Of a stretch of DNA of 44,541 bases, positions 5,683 to 41,531 are shown one piece after another; the first letter of the stretch is position 1, and each line of letters starts with the position of its first letter. A program made the translations under genes and the position numbers. Under the pieces are notes generated by a model that saw only the letters and a program-made list of their open reading frames with translations, searched no databases and was not told the origin of the DNA. Origin of the DNA: Candidatus Rokuibacteriota bacterium (GTDB lineage: Bacteria; Methylomirabilota; Methylomirabilia; Rokubacteriales; CSP1-6); contig JACPCF010000080.1 in NCBI GenBank assembly GCA_016179965.1, positions 1-44,541 on the forward strand, in the 5' to 3' direction.

Positions 5683-6515
5683 CCCTTCCGAGCCATCCGA
5701 GGGCGGGAAGGAGCCTCGGGCTCCTCCTCGCCCTGTCACTTCTGGCGGGCTGCGCTCCCCTGGCGGGGAGCGGGGTCGAGCAGGACCTGGCGCAGCTTCG
5801 CCAGGATGTGACCTCCCTCTCGCTGGCGGTCCACCGGGCGCGGGGGGCCACCGAGACCGTCCTGGGCCAGCTGGAGCGCCAGACCCGGGATCAGACGGCT
5901 GAAATCCAGAAGCAGCTCGCCGCCCTCCAGACCCGCACCGAGACGCTGAGCGGCGAGCTTTCCCGCCTCTCGACCCGCGTGGACGAACTCTCCCAGCGGG
6001 TGGAAACGCTGACCCGCCAGGTCCGGGCCACCCAACCCCCCGCGCCGGCAGCGCCTCGACCCGCCCCGGCCCCTCCGCGGGCGCCGGGCGGCCCCCAGCC
6101 CACCGACGTCTATCAGACGGCCTACATCGATTTCAGCAAGGGGAACTACCCCCTGGCCATCGCTGGTTTCCGCGAGTTCCTGAGGCGGTTCCCCGATGCG
6201 GAGCTGGCCAATAACGCCCAGTACTGGATCGGCGAGGCGTACTTCAGCCTGGCCCGGGGCTACGCCAACCAGGGGCAGGCCGACAAGGCCACCGGCGCCC
6301 TGGAGCAGGCCGTGCAGGAATTCCGGAAGGTGATCGTGAACTATCCGAGGGGGGAAAAGGTGCCGACAGCGCTCTACAAGGAGGCCTTGGCCCTCCTGGA
6401 GCTGAAGCAGCCGAGCCTAGCCGAGGCGCGGCTCAAATACCTGCTCGAGCACTTCCCGCAGTCCGAAGAGGCCCCCCTGGCCCGCGACCGCCTCGCCGCC
6501 CTGAAAAAGGAATAG
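5634..6515 (+). CDS. cpoB: CpoB/YbgF, Tol-Pal coordinating TPR lipoprotein (start uncertain)
   Basis: Periplasmic protein that couples Tol-Pal action to peptidoglycan synthesis in well-studied species. The recognisable protein begins with a lipoprotein signal RSLGLLLALSLLAGC (Cys encoded near 5751), then a coiled coil (encoded about 5775-6025), a Pro-rich hinge and three TPR-like repeats (YIDFSKGNYPLAIAGF onward). The start is a puzzle: there is no ATG, GTG or TTG in frame between 5637 and the signal peptide. The nearest canonical codon is GTG 5634, 49 nt inside pal, which gives an unlikely 25-residue N-terminus rich in Pro and Gly. A CTG at 5679 overlapping the pal stop would fit the signal peptide exactly. 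Confidence 0.85.
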   Translation: MLGQEPPGPLPGQGPLTLPSHPRAGRSLGLLLALSLLAGCAPLAGSGVEQDLAQLRQDVTSLSLAVHRARGATETVLGQLERQTRDQTAEIQKQLAALQTRTETLSGELSRLSTRVDELSQRVETLTRQVRATQPPAPAAPRPAPAPPRAPGGPQPTDVYQTAYIDFSKGNYPLAIAGFREFLRRFPDAELANNAQYWIGEAYFSLARGYANQGQADKATGALEQAVQEFRKVIVNYPRGEKVPTALYKEALALLELKQPSLAEARLKYLLEHFPQSEEAPLARDRLAALKKE

Positions 6516-6527
6516 GCGGCCGGTCGG

Positions 6528-6825
6528 CTAGGGGTCCCAGTAGCCGGAGATCCAGATCGGCTGGTAGTAACCCGTGTAAACCGTCAGTGGCACGTAGTAC
6601 CCCTCCACCCAGTACCCGTTCGGGTCGTAGTGGCCGGGAACCCACACGTGGTGCGTGTACACCCGCGGGATCCATTACGTAGATGATCTTCGTGTGCGGG
6701 TGCGTGAACTTGTGGTGGTGGAAGGCGCCGCCGCGGATGATGATCTTCGTGCCGTCGGCGGCCGCGGGGAGGGCCGACACGGTCAGGAGCGCGGCGGCCG
6801 CCAGAGCGCCCGCCGCTGCCTTCAT
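6528..6825 (-). pseudogene. Exported YXWVPGH/WXXGXW-repeat protein with one-base frameshift
   Basis: The gene opens with a signal peptide (MKAAAGALAAAALLTVSALP) and a His-rich stretch, GGAFHHHKFTHPHTKI. After IIYV the frame runs into unrelated sequence, but the next frame gives HVWVPGHYDPNGYWVEGYY and ends QPIWISGYWDP-stop, a typical aromatic YXWXXGXW tail. Removing one T from the pair at 6675-6676 (plus strand) joins the halves into a 98-residue protein. This is either a sequencing error or a recent frameshift. The ATG overlaps the stop of the upstream gene (ATGA), so it belongs to a two-gene unit. Function unknown; the family is found in small exported proteins. Confidence 0.72.
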
Positions 6826-7283
6826 CCCCGGTCTCCGGTCAGGCTCACGGGACGAATCTGCGATTGATCGCCCGGCTGCTCGAGGCCGAAGACCCAGATC
6901 ACGGTCATCTCGTCTTCCGGGCTCGAGAAGACCATGACGTTGCCGTTCGGATGGGCGGTCTCGACCGTATTGACGACCACCCCCGCCGGCAGGGCCGGCC
7001 CTTCCGGAGACGCGACCGGCCAGAGGAGCAGGACCAGGAGAAGCACGCCCGCCACGACGCCGCCCAGGGCCCCACCCAACGCCACGCGGGGGGACCACCC
7101 CCAGGCCTCGCGCCGGCGCGTCGGCCGCTCGCTGAGAATGCGACCGCGGATCCAGCCCCAGAAGCCGGTCCAATCCGGGTCAGGGCCCACCGTGAGCGTC
7201 GAGCGAAGAAGCTCCCGAAGCCGCTCGAGCCGGGACACCTCCCCCCGGCACCCGGGGCAGCCCTGAAGGTGGCTCACCACCGC
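6822..7283 (-). CDS. Anti-sigma-factor-like (ZAS-type) membrane protein, apparently short at the N-terminus
   Basis: About 153 residues. The start shows HLQGCPGC, the H-x3-C-x2-C zinc motif of ZAS anti-sigma factors, then a cytoplasmic stretch, one membrane helix (about residues 68-90, GGVVAGVLLLVLLLWPV) and a periplasmic tail. In frame upstream are the codons for GALDGRAV, the usual lead-in to this motif, but a TAA stop comes just before them, so only GTG 7283 or 7280 can start the protein. The normal first helix and first zinc ligand of the domain are thus missing. No sigma factor gene is adjacent. It overlaps the YXWVPGH gene by ATGA. Confidence 0.6.
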   Translation of the reverse strand, partial: AVVSHLQGCPGCRGEVSRLERLRELLRSTLTVGPDPDWTGFWGWIRGRILSERPTRRREAWGWSPRVALGGALGGVVAGVLLLVLLLWPVASPEGPALPAGVVVNTVETAHPNGNVMVFSSPEDEMTVIWVFGLEQPGDQSQIRPVSLTGDRG

Positions 7284-7327
7284 CCGCCCGTCAAGGGCAC
7301 CCGATTATTCGTGGTAAGGTCAATGGC

Positions 7328-7936
7328 ATGGAAGAAGCCGTCGACATCGAGGTCGGGCCCATCAGCCTGGAGGCGAGATTGGCGATGCCCGACATGGACA
7401 ATCCCGTCGTCGTGCGCGGCGCCGAAGTGTGTCGGGAGGCGGGGCTCGCCACGCTGCGCTTCAACTTCAGGGGCGTGGGCAAGTCGGGAGGGATCCACGA
7501 CCAGGGAGAGAGCGAGCAGGAGGACGTCCACGGCGCCCTGGCGCTGCTGGGTAAAGCCCTCGGCCCCGCGACGCCGCTCGGAGTCATCGGCTATTCGTTC
7601 GGGGCCTGGGTGGGAAGCCGGGTCGCCTGCGCTCACGACCGGGTCGCCGGCCTCGTGGCGATCGCACCGCCGCTCAGCTTCTACGACTTCGGCTTCCTCA
7701 CGGAGTGCCCGAAGACCCTGCTGCTCCTGGCCGGCTCCCGCGACCCCTACTGTCCGAGGGCGGAGTTCGAGGCGCTGGCGGCCCCCCTCCCCCGCGCCGA
7801 GGCGCGCCTCATCGAAGGCGCCGACCATTTTTTCTTTGGAAAGCTCTATCCGCTCGGCGAGACCGTGGCCGCCTGGGCCCACGGGTTTTCAGAACCGAGT
7901 CCGGGGCAGGCGGGACGGGATCGCGGTGCCGGCTGA
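7328..7936 (+). CDS. Alpha/beta hydrolase of the COG2945 type, lacking the HPHP segment
   Basis: 202-residue cytoplasmic alpha/beta hydrolase. The nucleophile elbow GYSFGAWVG gives Ser90, then Asp139 in GSRDPYC and His167 in GADHFFF, completing a triad. The stretch MDNPVVVRGAEVCREAG...LRFNFRGVG is diagnostic of the COG2945 family. In relatives the MDN motif is preceded by a beta strand and an HPHPLYGG-like motif that forms the oxyanion side of the site; here LEARLAMP joins directly to DMDN, so about 20 residues are absent without loss of frame (junction near 7387-7392). It may be inactive. Its 3' end overlaps the convergent DUF502 gene by 48 nt. Confidence 0.75.
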   Translation: MEEAVDIEVGPISLEARLAMPDMDNPVVVRGAEVCREAGLATLRFNFRGVGKSGGIHDQGESEQEDVHGALALLGKALGPATPLGVIGYSFGAWVGSRVACAHDRVAGLVAIAPPLSFYDFGFLTECPKTLLLLAGSRDPYCPRAEFEALAAPLPRAEARLIEGADHFFFGKLYPLGETVAAWAHGFSEPSPGQAGRDRGAG

Positions 7937-8500
7937 GAGAATGATCCGCAACCCCTCTTCGACCGTCAGCCCCGTGTGAATGACCTCGTCCTTCGGCACC
8001 AGGATGACATCCCCCAGGTACAGGTTATTGGTGGGCACGAAGACCGTCACCAGCTCCAGCTTCCCCTCGGGCCCCTCGACCAGGACGTCCCCGGTCCGGA
8101 AGCCGAAGACGTACTCGCCCTTCCGGGGATGCTCGGCCAGGACGACCTCCTTGAATGAGGTGCGCTTCTCGGGCGAGAACGCCTCGAGGAGCTGCTTGAC
8201 CGAGGGGTAGATGCTCCGGAAGATGGGAATGCGGAGCATGAGCCCCTCGAGCCAGGCGACCACGCGCCGGCCGACGACGTTCCGGGCGATGACCCCCACG
8301 ACGAGGATGAGCGCCACCCCCGTGAGGAAGCCGAGCCCCGGAATCCGCCGGCCGAACAGCTTCTCGTACCCCGGGGAGAAGAAGTCGTCGATCTTGTCCC
8401 AGAAGACGTAGAGGAGCCACGAGGTGGCGATGGCGGGAACGGTGACGAAGAAGCCGGTGAGGAAGCGAACCTTGAACCAGTTGCGGATCCCACCGGCCAT
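7889..8500 (-). CDS. DUF502 family integral membrane protein
   Basis: 203 residues. Two strong membrane helices (about 11-29 and 55-74) are separated by a short loop, followed by a soluble C-terminal domain with IPIFRSIYPSVKQLLEAF, a VVLAEHPRKGEYVFGF segment and VPTNNLYLGDVILVPKDEV. These are the hallmark motifs of DUF502 (PF04367), whose molecular role is not established. The ATG at 8500 lies only 9 bp from the start of the divergent SDR gene. The C-terminal coding end runs 48 nt into the convergent hydrolase gene. Confidence 0.85.
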   Translation of the reverse strand: MAGGIRNWFKVRFLTGFFVTVPAIATSWLLYVFWDKIDDFFSPGYEKLFGRRIPGLGFLTGVALILVVGVIARNVVGRRVVAWLEGLMLRIPIFRSIYPSVKQLLEAFSPEKRTSFKEVVLAEHPRKGEYVFGFRTGDVLVEGPEGKLELVTVFVPTNNLYLGDVILVPKDEVIHTGLTVEEGLRIILSAGTAIPSRLPRTRF

Positions 8501-8509
8501 AGCGAACCG

Positions 8510-9286
8510 ATGAAACCACAGGGAGTGGGACGTGTCAAGCAATCGGCCACCGGCGGCCGCCTGAATGGGCAGGTTGCACTCGTCACCGGCGGCGCGATTC
8601 GTCTCGGCCGGGCCATCAGCCTGGCGCTGGCGCGCGAGGGGTGCCACGTGGCGGTGAACTATCTCCGCTCGAGGCCGGCCGCCCTCGCCACAGCCAGCGA
8701 GATTCGCGCCCTTGGAGCGAACGCGGCGGCGATCCGCGCGGACGTAGCAAACCCGTCCGACGTCAAGCGGCTCGTGGCCGAGACGGTTCGGAGATTCGGG
8801 CGCCTGGACCTTCTGGTCAACAACGCGGGGATCTTCTTCCGCACCCTGCTGGCCGAGACGACCCCGGCCCAGTGGGACCGCCTGCTCGGGGTGAACCTGC
8901 GCGGGCCGTTTCTCGTGAGCCAGGCGGCAGCGCGAGCGATGGAGCGGCGCGGCGGCCGGATTATCAACATCGGCGACGTCGGCGGCGTGCGGGCCTGGCC
9001 TTCGTACATCCCCTACTGCGTCTCGAAGGCCGGCCTCCTCATGCTCACGAAGGCCCTGGCCCTCGCGCTGGCGCCCCGCATCCAGGTCAACTGCGTGGCG
9101 CCGGGAGCCGTGCTGCTCCCCGAGGGCTTCCCCGAACGCTTGAGACGGCGCCTCAGGCGCGAGGTCCCGATGGGGCGCGAGGGCGAGCCGGCCGACGTGG
9201 CGGCCGCCGTCCTCTTCTTCGCCACCGCCCCCTCTTACATCACCGGCCAAGTTCTATTTGTGGATGGCGGCGTGACCGCGCGCTAA
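8510..9286 (+). CDS. Short-chain dehydrogenase, pteridine-reductase-like
   Basis: 258-residue NAD(P)H-dependent SDR. Cofactor motif TGGAIRLGRAI (residues 26-36), NNAG at 104-107, active-site Tyr169 and Lys173 in YCVSK, and the C-terminal ITGQVLFVDGG. The usual catalytic Ser, 13 residues before Tyr, is replaced by Asp156 (INIGDVGG). An Asp at this spacing is the catalytic residue of Leishmania pteridine reductase PTR1 (Asp181/Tyr194/Lys198), and FolM enzymes also have Asp there. I therefore prefer a dihydropterin or dihydrofolate reductase role over a FabG-like 3-oxoacyl reductase. Alternative in-frame start: GTG 8525. No pterin gene is nearby to confirm. Confidence 0.8.
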   Translation: MKPQGVGRVKQSATGGRLNGQVALVTGGAIRLGRAISLALAREGCHVAVNYLRSRPAALATASEIRALGANAAAIRADVANPSDVKRLVAETVRRFGRLDLLVNNAGIFFRTLLAETTPAQWDRLLGVNLRGPFLVSQAAARAMERRGGRIINIGDVGGVRAWPSYIPYCVSKAGLLMLTKALALALAPRIQVNCVAPGAVLLPEGFPERLRRRLRREVPMGREGEPADVAAAVLFFATAPSYITGQVLFVDGGVTAR

Positions 9287-9291
9287 GGCGG

Positions 9292-9386
9292 CCCCCTCAC
9301 CCTCACCCTCCCAATACCCCTCACCTCTTCTCCTCTCCCCACTGGGGAGAGGCAGGGTGAGGGGGGAGAGGACAAAGGTGAGGGGG
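9292..9386. repeat. Dispersed palindrome, family B (copy 1)
   Basis: Core 9321-9364 forms a stem CCTCTCCCC / GGGGAGAGG followed by CAGGGTGAGGGG, flanked by further CCCTCACC and GGTGAGGG arms. It separates the convergent SDR and lipid-kinase genes, where a stem-loop could also end transcription. Copies 2-5 are at 19543, 36841, 37537 and 41444; copy 2 matches the core with a single loop difference. Confidence 0.85.
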
Positions 9387-16837: not shown

Positions 16838-16914
16838 ACGAGCCATCTCCGTTCCTGAGGGGAGGCAGCCCCCGAAGCCCCGAGCGAAGCGCGGGGGCGG
16901 CTTTGCCGCGGGGC

Positions 16915-16966
16915 GTCCGGGTACCCGGGCCGAAGGCCGGGGTGGGGGCGAAGCCCCCCTCCGAGC
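16915..16966. repeat. Family A repeat (copy 2), inverted partner of 17917-17968
   Basis: 52 bp that begin immediately after the stop of the AAA+ gene (stop at 16969-16967) and are, read on the minus strand, identical to 17917-17968 except for two positions. Includes the hairpin GGGGGCGAAGCCCCC and the palindrome GGGTACCC. Further G+C-rich palindromic sequence continues to about 16860. Confidence 0.85.
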
Positions 16967-17916: not shown

Positions 17917-17968
17917 GCTCGGAGGGGGGCTCCGCCCCCACCCAGGCCTTCGGCCCGGGTACCCGGAC
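17917..17968. repeat. Family A repeat (copy 3), 9 bp upstream of the AAA+ start
   Basis: Inverted copy of 16915-16966 (two mismatches). Begins GCTCGGAGGGGGGCTCCG on the plus strand. It is followed by GCGGGCAAAGCCCGCGCTCG (17988-18007), a second palindrome that also recurs in the 22445-22600 region. Confidence 0.85.
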
Positions 17969-18039
17969 TCCTCCCCCCCGAAGTTGCGCGGGCAAAGCCC
18001 GCGCTCGAACCAGGTCGTGCGACGGTTACGGGCACGGGG

Positions 18040-18573
18040 CTAGAAGTGGGGGCTGGGGCCGGTCTTGGGGCCCAATGTCCCGGACTTGTCGAAGACTCGG
18101 TCCTCCACGAGGATCGGGACCTTCGCCCGGATGGCGAGGGCGATCGCGTCGGAGGGGCGCGAGTCCAGGGTCATGTCGGCCCCGTTGGCGGTGAGATAGA
18201 CGACCGCGTAGTAGATATCGTCCTTGAAATCTGTGATCACCACCCGCGTGAGGGACACCTTGAGCCGGCCGAAGAGCGTGAGGAAAAGGTCATGGGTGAG
18301 CGGGCGTGGAGGCGTCACGCCCTGGAGCGGGATGGCGATGCCGTTGGCCTCGGCGATGCCGATCGCCATGGCGAACTGCCGCTTGTCGCGCTTGCCCTGG
18401 AGGACGACCACGGGCTGGTGGGTGCGCTGGTCGACCATCACCCCGATGACTTCCGCCTCCTGAGGGCCGGTGGCCTTCGGGGGCGGTGTCGGACTCGGTT
18501 CCTTGGCCCCCGTCCCTGTCAGGAGCACCATCGCCAGGAGCCCGAAGAGCGCAATCAATCGCCTCCTACCCAT
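18040..18573 (-). CDS. Bifunctional nuclease (BFN/DUF151) domain protein, exported
   Basis: 177 residues. An N-terminal hydrophobic signal (IALFGLLAMVLLTGTGA) precedes a BFN domain (about 37-165): QPVVVLQGKRDKRQFAMAIG, a THDLFLTLFGRL helix, then the signature DSRPSDAIALAIRAKVPI. Plant and thermophile members have been reported as nucleases or regulators, but the catalytic role of bacterial BFN is not settled. A signal peptide in this family is less common than a cytoplasmic protein and suggests a periplasmic site. GGAGGAGCGGAG precedes the ATG at 18573. Downstream is the family A repeat. Confidence 0.85.
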   Translation of the reverse strand: MGRRRLIALFGLLAMVLLTGTGAKEPSPTPPPKATGPQEAEVIGVMVDQRTHQPVVVLQGKRDKRQFAMAIGIAEANGIAIPLQGVTPPRPLTHDLFLTLFGRLKVSLTRVVITDFKDDIYYAVVYLTANGADMTLDSRPSDAIALAIRAKVPILVEDRVFDKSGTLGPKTGPSPHF

Positions 18574-18645
18574 CTCCGCTCCTCCCCTCCAGCCGGCCGA
18601 CCCACGACCGGCGTGAAAAAAGTATGGGTCTCGCCTCGGGGAAAG

Positions 18646-19352
18646 TCAACTCGGCCGGAGGCGAAAACTGGCCAGAAATCCGGCGACGAAGGTCGGCAGG
18701 AAGGTGAAGATCGTCCCCGTGCCGAGGCCGAAGAAGAACGCCAGCGCCATGTGCAGACGCAGGATCTCCTCCAGTCCCTCCCGGATCACCCGCGCCCCGC
18801 GCGCAGCCCCCGCCAGAGCGCCGGCGGATTCGCGGATCCGAAGCGTCAGGCCTAGCGCCACCAGGGCCAGGAGCGTCGTCAGCGCAAAGAACGCCCGAAA
18901 GCCGAAGCGCCGGATCACGAACTCGCCGGCCAGGGGCGAGAGGGCCGTCGAAAGGAGCCCCGAGATCCCGAAGATGCCCAGCGCCCAGCCCCGGCGCTCG
19001 GGCGGGACCAGGTCCACGACCAAAACCCGATGCCCTGAAGGGCCCTGAGGAGCGCAAACACGGGAAGCGAGGCGAACAGCGCGAAGCCGAGGGAGGCCAG
19101 CACCACGAGGCTGACGCCGAAGAGCATGAGGGGACGGCGGCCGAGGCGATCCACCCAGGCACCCACCAGCGGCTGGCAGAAGATCCCCGTGGCGTTGTAC
19201 ATCCCCATGACGACGCCAATCTGGGCCTCGGTTCCCCCGTGCCGTTGGATGTAGAGGGGGAGGAACGCGTTGACGCTGGCGAAGAAGAAAAAGTTCAGGG
19301 AGGTGACGCGGAAGAACTGGCCGGTGAGAACGGACGAGAGGGGGAGCGTCAC
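18646..19352 (-). pseudogene. MFS transporter remnant, frameshifted by an internal deletion and cut at the 3' end
   Basis: The start (GTG 19352) gives a good MFS N-terminus: membrane helices, then GTEAQIGVVMGMYNATGIF and the loop motif GAWVDRLGRRPLMLFG, as far as ALLRALQGIGF. There the frame shifts: the next frame resumes with VVDLVPPERRGWALGIFGISG. In relatives about nine residues separate these two motifs, so a deletion of roughly 25-30 bp, not a multiple of three, lies near 19021-19027. The second half ends abruptly after IFTFLPTFVAGF with a stop at 18646, so helices 8-12 are absent altogether. Almost certainly non-functional. Confidence 0.8.
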
Positions 19353-19530: not shown

Positions 19531-20426
19531 CGATGCGTCGTTCCCCTCTTCTCCTCTCCCCGCTGGGGAGAGGCAGGGTGAGGGGCACTCGCGCACCTAA
19601 AGCCGACCATGTCGAGCCCGAAGTGGGGCGGGTTGGCGTGGCGGAGGGTTGACCTGAGGCCCCACGGATCATTCCCCCAGCCGCCACCGCGAATGACCTT
19701 CATGTCTCCCGGAGTGCGATTGACGGGATCGACGCCGGGCGACCGCCGGTAGAAGGCCGGGTCGAACCAATCCTCCACCCACTCCCAGACGTTCCCCGCC
19801 AGATCATCCACACCGAAGGGCGAGCGCCCGAGGGGGAAGCTCCCCACGGGGGCCGTGAAACGGTAGCCGTCGGCGGCGTCGGCCCGGCAGCAGTCGTCGC
19901 TCCCGTAGGAGGCCCGATACCGGCGGCCCTCGCGCGGCGGCGCGTTTCCCCAGGGATAGGTCCGCCGGCCGTCGCCGCGCGCCGCTCGCTCCCACTCGGC
20001 CTCCGTCGGCAGGCGCTTGCCCTTCCAGAGGCAGTAAGCCCGCGCGTCGCGCCAGCTCACCTGCACCACCGGATGCCGGTCGAGGCCTTCAATCGAAGAG
20101 TCGGAGCCGTGGGGGTGACGCCAGTCGGCGCCCCGGACCTCCCGCCAGCGGCCGTCCCAGAGCCACCCCGCGCCGCTCCGCTCGGGATCCGTCACGTGAC
20201 TCGTCGCGGCGACGAAGGCGGCGAACTCGGCGTTCGTAGCCTCGTAGCGGTCCATCCAGAAGGCCGAGACCGTCACGCGGTGCACCGGGCGCTCGGCAGG
20301 CTCGCCGGCGTCGCTGCCCATCGTGAAAGTCCCGCGCGGGACGAGGATCATCTCCTCGCCAAGAAAGACCAGGAGGACAAGGCCCAGCCTTGCGCCGTGG
20401 AGCAAGGTTCCGTAGACTCCAGCCAT
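19503..20426 (-). CDS. SUMF1/FGE-sulfatase-domain protein, catalytic cysteines absent
   Basis: 307 residues. The domain runs from MILVPRGTFTMGSD (about residue 26) through ERPVHRVTVSAFWMDRYEATN, HPVVQVSWRDARAYCLWKGKRLPTEAEWE, DLAGNVWEWVEDWF and RGGGWGND to VGFRCA. Formylglycine-generating enzymes need Cys residues shortly after the RGGSW motif; here the stretch is WGLRSTLRHANPP without them, so it is not a sulfatase activator. The N-terminal 20 residues are hydrophobic and may anchor or export it; a start at ATG 20351 (MILVP) is the alternative. The last 30 residues (SAPHPASPQRGEEKRG on) are encoded by the family B palindrome. Confidence 0.82.
   Translation of the reverse strand: MAGVYGTLLHGARLGLVLLVFLGEEMILVPRGTFTMGSDAGEPAERPVHRVTVSAFWMDRYEATNAEFAAFVAATSHVTDPERSGAGWLWDGRWREVRGADWRHPHGSDSSIEGLDRHPVVQVSWRDARAYCLWKGKRLPTEAEWERAARGDGRRTYPWGNAPPREGRRYRASYGSDDCCRADAADGYRFTAPVGSFPLGRSPFGVDDLAGNVWEWVEDWFDPAFYRRSPGVDPVNRTPGDMKVIRGGGWGNDPWGLRSTLRHANPPHFGLDMVGFRCASAPHPASPQRGEEKRGTTHRQGSEQSRV
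19543..19585. repeat. Family B palindrome (copy 2), inside the SUMF1 gene end
   Basis: Core nearly identical to copy 1 (9321-9364). On the minus strand it is read as coding sequence for the tail PHPASPQRGEE of the SUMF1 protein. Confidence 0.85.
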
Positions 20427-22595: not shown

Positions 22596-24002
22596 TCACC
22601 GGCTGCCCGCCTGCGTCATCAAGTAGGTCAGCACGGTGCGCACCCCCACGCCGGTGCCCCCCTTGGGCCCGAGCGGCAGATCCTTCTCGGTGAAGGCGGT
22701 GCCGGCGATGTCGAGGTGCACCCACGGGACCGAGCCCGCGAATTCCCGGAGGAAGATCCCCGCGGTGAGCGCGCCCCCGCCCCGGGGCCCGACATTGTTC
22801 AGGTCGGCCACGTCGCTCTTGAGCAGCTCCTTGTACTCGTCAATGAGCGGCATCGGCCACATCCGCTCCCCCGCGGCCTCGGCCGCAGCCAGCACGCGGT
22901 CGGCGAGCGGCCTGTCGTTCCACATGACGCCGGAGCAGAGGTTACCGAGCGCGACTACGATCGCGCCCGTCAGGGTGGCGAGATCGATGACTTCCTGCGG
23001 CTTGACCTCTTTGACGGCGTACGCCAGCGCGTCGGCCAGCGTGAGCCGCCCTTCCGCGTCGGTATTGCCGATCTCGATCGTGGCGCCATTCATCGCGCGC
23101 ACGATGTCGCCCGGGCGCTGGGCGGTGCCCGACGGCCCCGACATGTCGTCCTTCATCCTGAGCATGCCGTCGGCCGTCTTGAGGTCGAGGCCGCCCGAGT
23201 CGAAGGTGATCCCCTTCCCGACGATCGCAATCTTCCGGCGTCCCCGGCCGCGCGGCGCATACGTCAGGTGGATGAACTTCGGCGGCTCCTCGCTTCCCTG
23301 GGCCACTCCAAGGTACGCCCCCATCCCCAGCTTCTGGCAGTCACCCCGGTCGTAGATCTTGAGCTTGAGTTTCCCGTCTTTCGCGATCTGGGTGGCCACC
23401 TTGGCCAGATAGGTGGGCGTGAGCTGGTTGGCCGGCTCGTTGACGAGATCCCGCGCAAAGCAGGCGGCGTCAGCGAAGAGCTCGCCGAGGCTGAGGCCCT
23501 CCTTGATCAGCGCCTCCAGACGGCGCTGGGGATCCACCACCCGCAGCTCCTCGACAGCCTTGTCGTTCTTCTCGCGCTTATAGCGGTCGAAGGTGTAGGC
23601 GCCGAGTAGAGCGCCCTCGGCCAGCGCCTGGGCGCGAACCTTCGGCGCGAGACCGTCGCCCAGGAGCGCCGCTGAAACGATCCGAGCGCCGAGGTCCCGA
23701 GCGCGCCTCAGGGCGGCAGCGGTCGCCCGGCGCACCCGCTCGGCGTCCAGCTCCTTCCGCTTCCCGAGCCCGACCACGAGGACGCGCTTGGCGGGAAGCC
23801 GGCCGGCCGTGTGGACGTAGGCGATCTGCTCGGGCTTTCCCGTAAACTTCTCGGCCCTCAGCACCTCCGACAGCAATCCCTTGAGCGCGCGGTCCAGCGC
23901 CGCCATCGGCGGCGCGAGGCGCTTCTCCTCGGCGTAGCCTCCGACGACGAGCACATCGCCGTCGGCCTGGAGCAGCGAGCGCGCGTGGAACGTGAGCCTC
24001 AT
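22596..24002 (-). CDS. pepA: Leucyl aminopeptidase (PepA, M17) with a 30-residue deletion in the active domain
   Basis: 468-residue cytosolic M17 metallopeptidase. Metal ligands and catalytic residues are present: Lys263 and Asp268 in VGKGITFDSGG, Lys275, Asp286 in KDDMSG, Asp314 and Glu316 in NTDAEGR, Arg318. In E. coli PepA 59 residues separate the Asp of the DMCG motif from the Asp of NTDAEGR; here it is 29, because DDMSG joins directly to PSGTAQRPGD. Exactly 30 residues (AAAV... to ...ENM in relatives), a helix and strand of the catalytic domain, are lost in frame at 23134-23139. Folding or activity is doubtful. ATG 24002 overlaps the Nudix stop (ATGA). Confidence 0.88.
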   Translation of the reverse strand: MRLTFHARSLLQADGDVLVVGGYAEEKRLAPPMAALDRALKGLLSEVLRAEKFTGKPEQIAYVHTAGRLPAKRVLVVGLGKRKELDAERVRRATAAALRRARDLGARIVSAALLGDGLAPKVRAQALAEGALLGAYTFDRYKREKNDKAVEELRVVDPQRRLEALIKEGLSLGELFADAACFARDLVNEPANQLTPTYLAKVATQIAKDGKLKLKIYDRGDCQKLGMGAYLGVAQGSEEPPKFIHLTYAPRGRGRRKIAIVGKGITFDSGGLDLKTADGMLRMKDDMSGPSGTAQRPGDIVRAMNGATIEIGNTDAEGRLTLADALAYAVKEVKPQEVIDLATLTGAIVVALGNLCSGVMWNDRPLADRVLAAAEAAGERMWPMPLIDEYKELLKSDVADLNNVGPRGGGALTAGIFLREFAGSVPWVHLDIAGTAFTEKDLPLGPKGGTGVGVRTVLTYLMTQAGSR

Positions 24003-24448
24003 TCCCATTCGAAGAAGTCCTTGAGTTGCACCGCCTTGTTCACCATGGCCGCCAGCCCTTCCGTCGTTTCGTACCGCCCGAGCTCCCCGATGGGCACCCA
24101 CCGCGCGTCGGCGGCATCGCTGCCGGGACGGAGGTCGCCGCTCTCGGGGGCGGCGACATAGTCAATCAGCACGTAATGATACCGGACCCGCCCGTCGGGA
24201 TCGGAGATGATGCGCTCGACGACGCCCGCCAGGCCCTGAAGGCGCACGCGGAGTCCGCACTCCTCCGCCACCTCGCGGACCGCGGCGGCTTCGGTCGTCT
24301 CGCCGAGGTTGACCAGCCCGCCGGGGATGCTCCACTTCCCCTCGGCCGGGGGGCGGTTGCGCCGGACCAGCAGGACGTGGCCGTCCTTCAGCACGACCGC
24401 CCCCACGCCGACCCTCGGGGCCTCGGGATACTCGCGCGCGTCAGACAT
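23999..24448 (-). CDS. Nudix hydrolase
   Basis: 149 residues. The Nudix box GGLVNLGETTEAAAVREVAEE-CGL (G-x5-E-x7-REVxEExGL) is complete, with WSIPGG upstream. This group hydrolyses nucleoside diphosphate derivatives such as ADP-ribose or 8-oxo-dGTP; the exact substrate cannot be read off. The strand HYVLIDYVAAPESGDLRPGSDAADARWVP suggests the ADP-ribose/NADH type or MutT-like. It begins at ATG 24448, where the family length starts, and is followed by pepA with ATGA overlap. Confidence 0.85.
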   Translation of the reverse strand: MSDAREYPEAPRVGVGAVVLKDGHVLLVRRNRPPAEGKWSIPGGLVNLGETTEAAAVREVAEECGLRVRLQGLAGVVERIISDPDGRVRYHYVLIDYVAAPESGDLRPGSDAADARWVPIGELGRYETTEGLAAMVNKAVQLKDFFEWE

Positions 24449-25134: not shown

Positions 25135-26093
25135 TCACTGGATCACCTGGTCGGCGCGGACGAGGACGGACGGGGGGATCGTGAGGCCGAGGGCCCTAGC
25201 GGTCTTGAGGTTGATGACCAGCTCGAACTTCGTCGGTTGCTCGATGGGCAAATCAGCGGGCTTGGCGCCCTTCAGGATTTTGTCCACATAGGTGGCGGCG
25301 CGCCTCCCGCTGGCAGCCTGTGGTTCGCCGCAAGTTCCGCGATCCGCCCCCGGTGAAGACTCGTAAACGGGTCCAGCGTTACGAAGAGGCCGTCGGGGCG
25401 CTCCCGGGAGACCGTAGAGAAGGCGCGCTCGAAATCCGTGGGATCTCCTTGGACCTCCAGCGATTGGAGCTTTACGCCTAACGCCTCGGCTGCGACCCGC
25501 GTCTCCCTGAAGGTGTGCACCATGGCCGGACTGGCCGAATTCCAGAGCACGGCCACCCGGGAGAGCTTGGGCAAAGTCTCCTTAAGCAGTTCCAGCCGTT
25601 TCCCCGCCAGCTCCGGAGCTAGGAGGGACAGCCCCGTGACGTTCCCCCCCGGCCGGGCGAGGCCGGCCACGAGCCCGGTGACGACCGGATCGCCAACGGC
25701 CGCCATGACGATGGGAATCGTGCTGGTCGCCTTCTTCGCAGCTTGGATCGCAGGGGCGGAGGATGTGACGATGACGTCCACCTTGAGACGGACCAGCTCG
25801 GCCGCGAGGTCGGCGAGCGGATCCAGCTTCCCCCCCGCCCACCGGTACTCGATCGCAATGTTCCGGCCCTCCACATAGCCCAGGTCCCGCAGCCCTTGTA
25901 AGAGGGTTTCAAGGGTCGCCAAGCGAGCAGGTGGCGTCGGAGGGGACCCCGGGAGCAGGATGCCTATCCGTGGAACTTTCGCCGGCTGTTGAGCGTCGGC
26001 CGCTGGCGGTACGACGAGCCCAGCCAGGGTGACGATAAGCGCAAGTGTCCTGGCGGTCTTGAGGGTGACGAGGAGCCTGGCCGTTTCGCGCAT
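25135..26093 (-). pseudogene. ABC substrate-binding protein (PF04392 type) broken by internal deletion
   Basis: The first 270 codons give a normal ABC_sub_bind protein: signal peptide (LVVPPAADAQ), VPRIGILLPGS, LRDLGYVEGRNIAIEYRWA, AAVGDPVVTGLVAGLARPGGNVTG and [27 protein letters not shown]. Then the frame stops, but in the next frame the rest of the family reads [39 protein letters not shown] and [14 protein letters not shown] to a stop at 25135. About 24 residues normally found between these parts (the MYGFREFVDAGG-like section) are missing, with a frame change, near 25301-25311. It sits 25 nt downstream of lipM, at the tail of the gcv operon. Confidence 0.85.
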
Positions 26094-41443: not shown

Positions 41444-41490
41444 CCCCCTCACCTGAATCCTCTCCCCACCTGGGAGAGGCAGGGTGAGGG
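41444..41490. repeat. Family B palindrome (copy 5)
   Basis: CCTCTCCCCACCTGGGAGAGG with flanks CCCCTCACC and AGGGTGAGGGG. It lies between the divergent larA-like and epimerase genes, the only copy in a divergent intergenic space. Confidence 0.85.
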
Positions 41491-41531
41491 GGGCGTCAAC
41501 GCGAGGGGCGCTTTCGGCTGGGTAACACCTC

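Follow-up and report, generated by a model that had tools for sequence, protein, structure and literature searches.

A short COG2945-type hydrolase gene without its oxyanion-loop segment in a Rokuibacteriota genome: probably a recently disabled copy

Our analysis of a 44,541-nt stretch of DNA from Candidatus Rokuibacteriota bacterium (assembly GCA_016179965.1, contig JACPCF010000080.1; hereafter the window, and its genome G000) indicates that the short hydrolase ORF listed in Table 1 quite probably represents a COG2945-type gene for an ordinary lid-less serine hydrolase, in a copy that was disabled recently. We suggest that a 54-nt deletion took out strand β3 together with the HPHP oxyanion loop, and that a separate loss removed the probable −35 box of the hydrolase promoter along with the 5′ end of the divergently transcribed anti-sigma gene. 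Deprived of one central strand and of half its oxyanion hole, the product is expected to fold poorly and to be unable to hydrolyse esters; the copy is probably dead. We further infer that the gene would not be expressed, and that the sequence as assembled represents a true allele. As an account of the locus a disabled gene is the most likely, an assembly fault being its main rival and a working short enzyme being unlikely.

Table 1. Features of the hydrolase locus (positions in the window)
Feature	Position	Strand	Basis
ORF, presumably anti-sigma-like; N-terminal MKRRLAPY..DGALSGER segment damaged	6822..7280	−	Comparison with relatives
Reduced upstream region, TAAGGT kept at 7315–7320	7285..7320		Alignments; promoter boxes by eye
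COG2945-type α/β hydrolase ORF, short form, 202 aa	7328..7936	+	Best PDB sequence matches 2i3d, 3trd, 2fuk
Deletion junction; 54 nt/18 residues PAPAGGVTLCHPHPLYGG absent versus sister	7388..7391	+	Sister alignment, 68 loci
Codon of Ser90, nucleophile, in GYSFGA	7595..7597	+	Conserved; role by family knowledge
Codon of Asp139, triad acid	7742..7744	+	Conserved; role by family knowledge
Codon of His167, triad base	7826..7828	+	Conserved; role by family knowledge
Neighbour, presumably DUF502-type; 3′ end overlapping hydrolase 3′ end	7889..8575	−	Stretch kept in sister and G002

In the translated ORF, LEARLAMP runs directly into DMDNPVVV, just as the initial annotation had read it, and the family that it had named also proved right: sequence homology to COG2945 α/β hydrolases extends across the hydrolase body (in relatives, in PDB matches, which agree in fold as well, and in the relatives' profile), COG2945 being the number that we take to apply both here and to 2i3d, 3trd and 2fuk. 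Pfam places the ORF in general α/β hydrolase families, and NCBIfam gave no match to it above the curated cut-offs. The Ser90–Asp139–His167 triad, which was said to remain, is intact, each of the three residues being conserved in at least 90 % of the relatives; their roles as nucleophile, acid and base are those that we assume from knowledge of the family. The ORF contains no stop and no frameshift. Within the host genome, a 2.99 Mb draft in 166 contigs, a search revealed no second close copy of the hydrolase (the next match had E 4.8e-4 over 68 residues), and there was no Rfam match within 6500–8700. A literature search found no paper on COG2945, nor one on ‘oxyanion hole’ in combination with HPHP and hydrolase.

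The sister genome, that of Rokubacteria bacterium CSP1-6 (G001), encodes an orthologue with 82 % identity over residues 21–202, relative to which the window hydrolase lacks 18 residues, 54 nt net and in frame, between LAMP and DMDNP; a second aligner placed a 56-nt loss at the same site. In the sister PAPAGGVTLCHPHPLYGG stands between LAAP and DMDNP, where the window has nothing, and the locus of the missing segment reads LEARLAAPPAPAGGVTLCHPHPLYGGDMDNPVVV. In relatives, 68 hydrolase loci were read, comprising the best 29 from a search of 60 genomes (in which 39 of the 60 gave some match, those beyond the best 29 being weak) and all 39 from a named collection, with at least six contigs common to both sets. 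The segment is present at all 68 loci, as HPHP in 56, HPHS in nine and PPHP in one, and it is cut in the remaining two, which are one contig seen twice that starts inside the segment and shows PHPLYGG. The claims that about 20 residues had been lost, and that these comprise a β strand and an HPHP loop kept by relatives, are therefore borne out, the window hydrolase having neither the HPH[PS]xxGG oxyanion segment nor the strand that precedes it. Homologues with the same short form, which in the initial annotation would count against its reading if they were of the same clade and active, were found at none of the 68 loci. Relative to intact orthologues, essential parts of the gene have thus been lost, as in a pseudogene formed by deletion.

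In this family the HPHP loop is understood to supply part of the oxyanion hole. In the AlphaFold model of the sister protein (mean pLDDT 93.3) the lost residues, 22–39, contain strand E27–31 and the loop that follows it, whereas the model of the short form has a mean pLDDT of 83.5, falls below 50 at residues 1–4, 11–21 and 50–52, and does not form the strand equivalent to sister E59–63. Compared with 2i3d_A, the sister model gave a TM score of 0.84 and an rmsd of 2.9, and the short form 0.73 and 6.4, values that come from models of these two forms alone, AlphaFold being no test of stability. It is conceivable, albeit very improbable in our estimation, that the short form works as a hydrolase, with β2 replacing β3 and with an oxyanion hole built from the residue after Ser90 and the backbone near Pro21–Asp22. 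Such an enzyme would be in keeping with the retained triad and open frame, and with a pairwise dN/dS of 0.24 between the window and sister genes (the fourth highest among 25 genes, yet far below 1); the absence of two strands and the low-confidence stretches in its model, the presence of the segment at every locus read and the damage to the promoter described below all argue against it.

With regard to a disabled copy, the reading that we prefer, the ORF itself shows little wear. Replacements in the hydrolase, polarised with 30 other relatives, number four on the window branch and four on the sister branch, and neither these nor dN/dS give any sign of the relaxed selection that a pseudogene might display. 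As nothing in the ORF points to prolonged decay, the deletion is recent if it is real, or else it is a fault of the assembly. The latter, namely that the organism has a full-length gene and that the contig lost the 54 nt (and possibly also the 90 nt of the pepA-like gene considered below) through an assembly or consensus artefact, is a possibility that we take seriously but consider rather doubtful. It gains from the fragmented, draft state of G000 and from the finding that both short ORFs are open and have not accumulated replacements faster than their counterparts (in pepA, 8 polarised to the window branch versus 17 to the G002 branch); inspection by eye, however, showed at the two junctions no long direct repeat through which the segment could have been skipped in assembly.

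The region upstream of the hydrolase also speaks against an artefact, in that the remnant in the window has diverged and is not a simple cut. Some 135 nt in all are absent here in comparison with the sister, the two aligners differing in how they split them, and this loss removes the sister's TTGACT, which sits 18 nt before TAAGGT (promoter boxes read by eye), as well as the opening codons of the divergent anti-sigma-like gene, whose product starts MKRRLAPY in both relatives. One of these relatives, G002, the third member of the genus among the three genomes compared, keeps the upstream stretch that the window has lost, TTGACT included, and has only the last 30 hydrolase codons left at the locus. 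Such a separate loss of the hydrolase at the same place again weighs against an assembly fault in the window, and with nearly the whole gene gone from another member, the genus seems able to do without it at this locus. Since G002 has another hydrolase homologue (45 % identical) on its contig C73, its loss at the locus is nevertheless no proof that the function is dispensable.

A second enzyme in the window with an in-frame loss, as had been claimed initially, is indeed present. It is a pepA-like gene at 22596–24101 (−), which we take to encode a leucyl aminopeptidase, and it is exactly 90 nt (30 residues) shorter than its counterparts in three relatives (G002, G016 and G018), with the junction at about 23135–23137. 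Of the 28 relatives examined, 27 have the 30 core residues that separate the DM[SA]G and PSG motifs, and the 28th (G046) gave no readable protein; a 29th (L117), cut by a contig end, was left out, and the sister, a draft about 90 % complete, gave no pepA match. The window also carries other losses. In an MFS-like gene at 18566–19352 (−), 438 nt are missing at 18684, where the flanks overlap by 4 nt (18684–18687, CGAC), and a further 28 nt are missing out of frame at 19022 relative to G001, G002 and G016. An ABC substrate-binding-like gene at 25272–26093 (−) has an out-of-frame loss of 70 nt at 25308 versus G016, and its C-terminus is altered. Elsewhere in the genome, on contig C37, a protein that is presumably FGE/sulfatase-modifying-like (L207, 30–440, −) lacks 30 residues (90 nt) present in the sister, with flanks 93 % identical; this comparison was with the sister alone and its direction is not polarised, other relatives having served to polarise the loss just for the COG2945 gene, pepA and the MFS-like gene of the window. 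A flank overlap of 4 nt like that at the 438-nt loss is common in real deletions and in this respect weighs against an assembly artefact. Since out-of-frame losses occur on the contig too, the in-frame ones are simply those that leave a readable ORF. The suggestion that two in-frame losses in one window are unlikely to be chance retains weak support, and the idea that they point to something special, given the out-of-frame and 438-nt losses beside them, is not supported.

We also considered whether losses are more frequent in G000 than in its sister. Among 218 orthologous ORF pairs (148 plus 70, two sets that may share ORFs), gaps of at least 5 aa with conserved flanks numbered 12 missing here (9 plus 3) and 6 missing in the sister (2 plus 4), and gaps of at least 15 aa numbered 3 and 0, respectively. 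The excess in G000 is mild and the numbers are small; the count of 3 versus 0 is what an artefact in this assembly might also produce. At the nucleotide level, about 833 kb of G000, window included, was compared with about 837 kb of the sister, giving 49 alignments (157,453 paired columns), paralogous ones among them. The flank filter kept 41 of the 99 gaps of at least 12 nt and discarded 58; of those kept, 25 are missing in G000 and 16 in the sister. An automatic flag marked five gaps as in frame and coding, all missing in G000 and 15–33 nt long, but the COG2945 event, 56 nt long in that alignment, escaped it for this reason, and the flag is therefore unreliable. A genome-wide excision programme was rejected, as 12 versus 6 gaps of at least 5 aa make no clear programme.

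More specifically, one might propose a shared process, acting at CGAC-bearing junctions, that cuts core segments in frame from the hydrolase (54 nt), the leucyl aminopeptidase (90 nt) and the FGE-like protein (90 nt), and that leaves short proteins which retain the residues of their active sites and may work in some other way. Three clean in-frame core losses would fit such a process, as would the 9-mer CCCGACATG, of which the window has just two copies, both on the + strand and one at each of the in-frame junctions (7388 and 23137), with none on the other strand; at least 9 nt were shared in 0.6 % of draws of random site pairs. CGAC or GTCG moreover lies near 8 of 25 loss junctions in G000, compared with 15 % of random places and 2 of 16 junctions in the sister. 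The motif was, however, chosen after the fact: CGACATG is present at only one of the 41 kept events, the COG2945 one itself, and CGAC stands on the right side at only one of the 25 G000 junctions. Striking as CCCGACATG looked at both junctions, its tests were weak, and we do not adopt it as a shared junction signal. Considering also the out-of-frame losses, the unpolarised direction of the FGE-like loss and the 70 further ORF pairs, none of which shows a loss of more than 15 aa, we regard a shared process as the least probable of the explanations and as highly improbable in itself.

Two kinds of repeat were observed elsewhere in the window. An interspersed palindromic repeat, CTCTCCCC..GGGGAGAG, is found at 9321–9364, 19542–19585 and 41448–41491, and 28 matches of about 55–120 nt to the surroundings of its first copy were listed in the sister. 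Inverted repeats of 55 nt (16912–16966 and 17917–17971, 95 % complementary) lie at the two ends of an AAA+ ATPase-like ORF.

Taken as an ordinary broken gene, which is how we read it, the ORF is of small importance in itself, and it is a caution against annotating it as an active hydrolase. It also marks the G000 genome, or its assembly, as one in which genes can lose internal segments cleanly and still read as open frames. Should the short form work after all, a lid-less serine hydrolase could do without its oxyanion loop.

Finally, considering known systems, the window hydrolase matches the lid-less α/β hydrolases Atu1826 (2i3d), 3trd and XC6422 (2fuk) in sequence and fold, and shares with them the GYSFGA nucleophile motif and the conserved Asp and His; in contrast to all three, it is without strand β3 and the HPHPLYGG loop. 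XC6422 has a structure paper (PMC2243109), cited in PMC5113044. According to PMC8212958, the esterase DS-007 from an Indian hot spring, expressed in E. coli, was modelled on XC6422 as a lid-less enzyme with a Ser–Asp–His triad; that protein, of 213 aa, was modelled there as a complete fold, whereas the window copy is shortened. Closest of all is the intact orthologue of Rokubacteria bacterium CSP1-6 (LDXP01000037.1, L228), which has the same upstream and downstream neighbours as the window hydrolase but, unlike it, retains the 18 residues and a longer upstream region.
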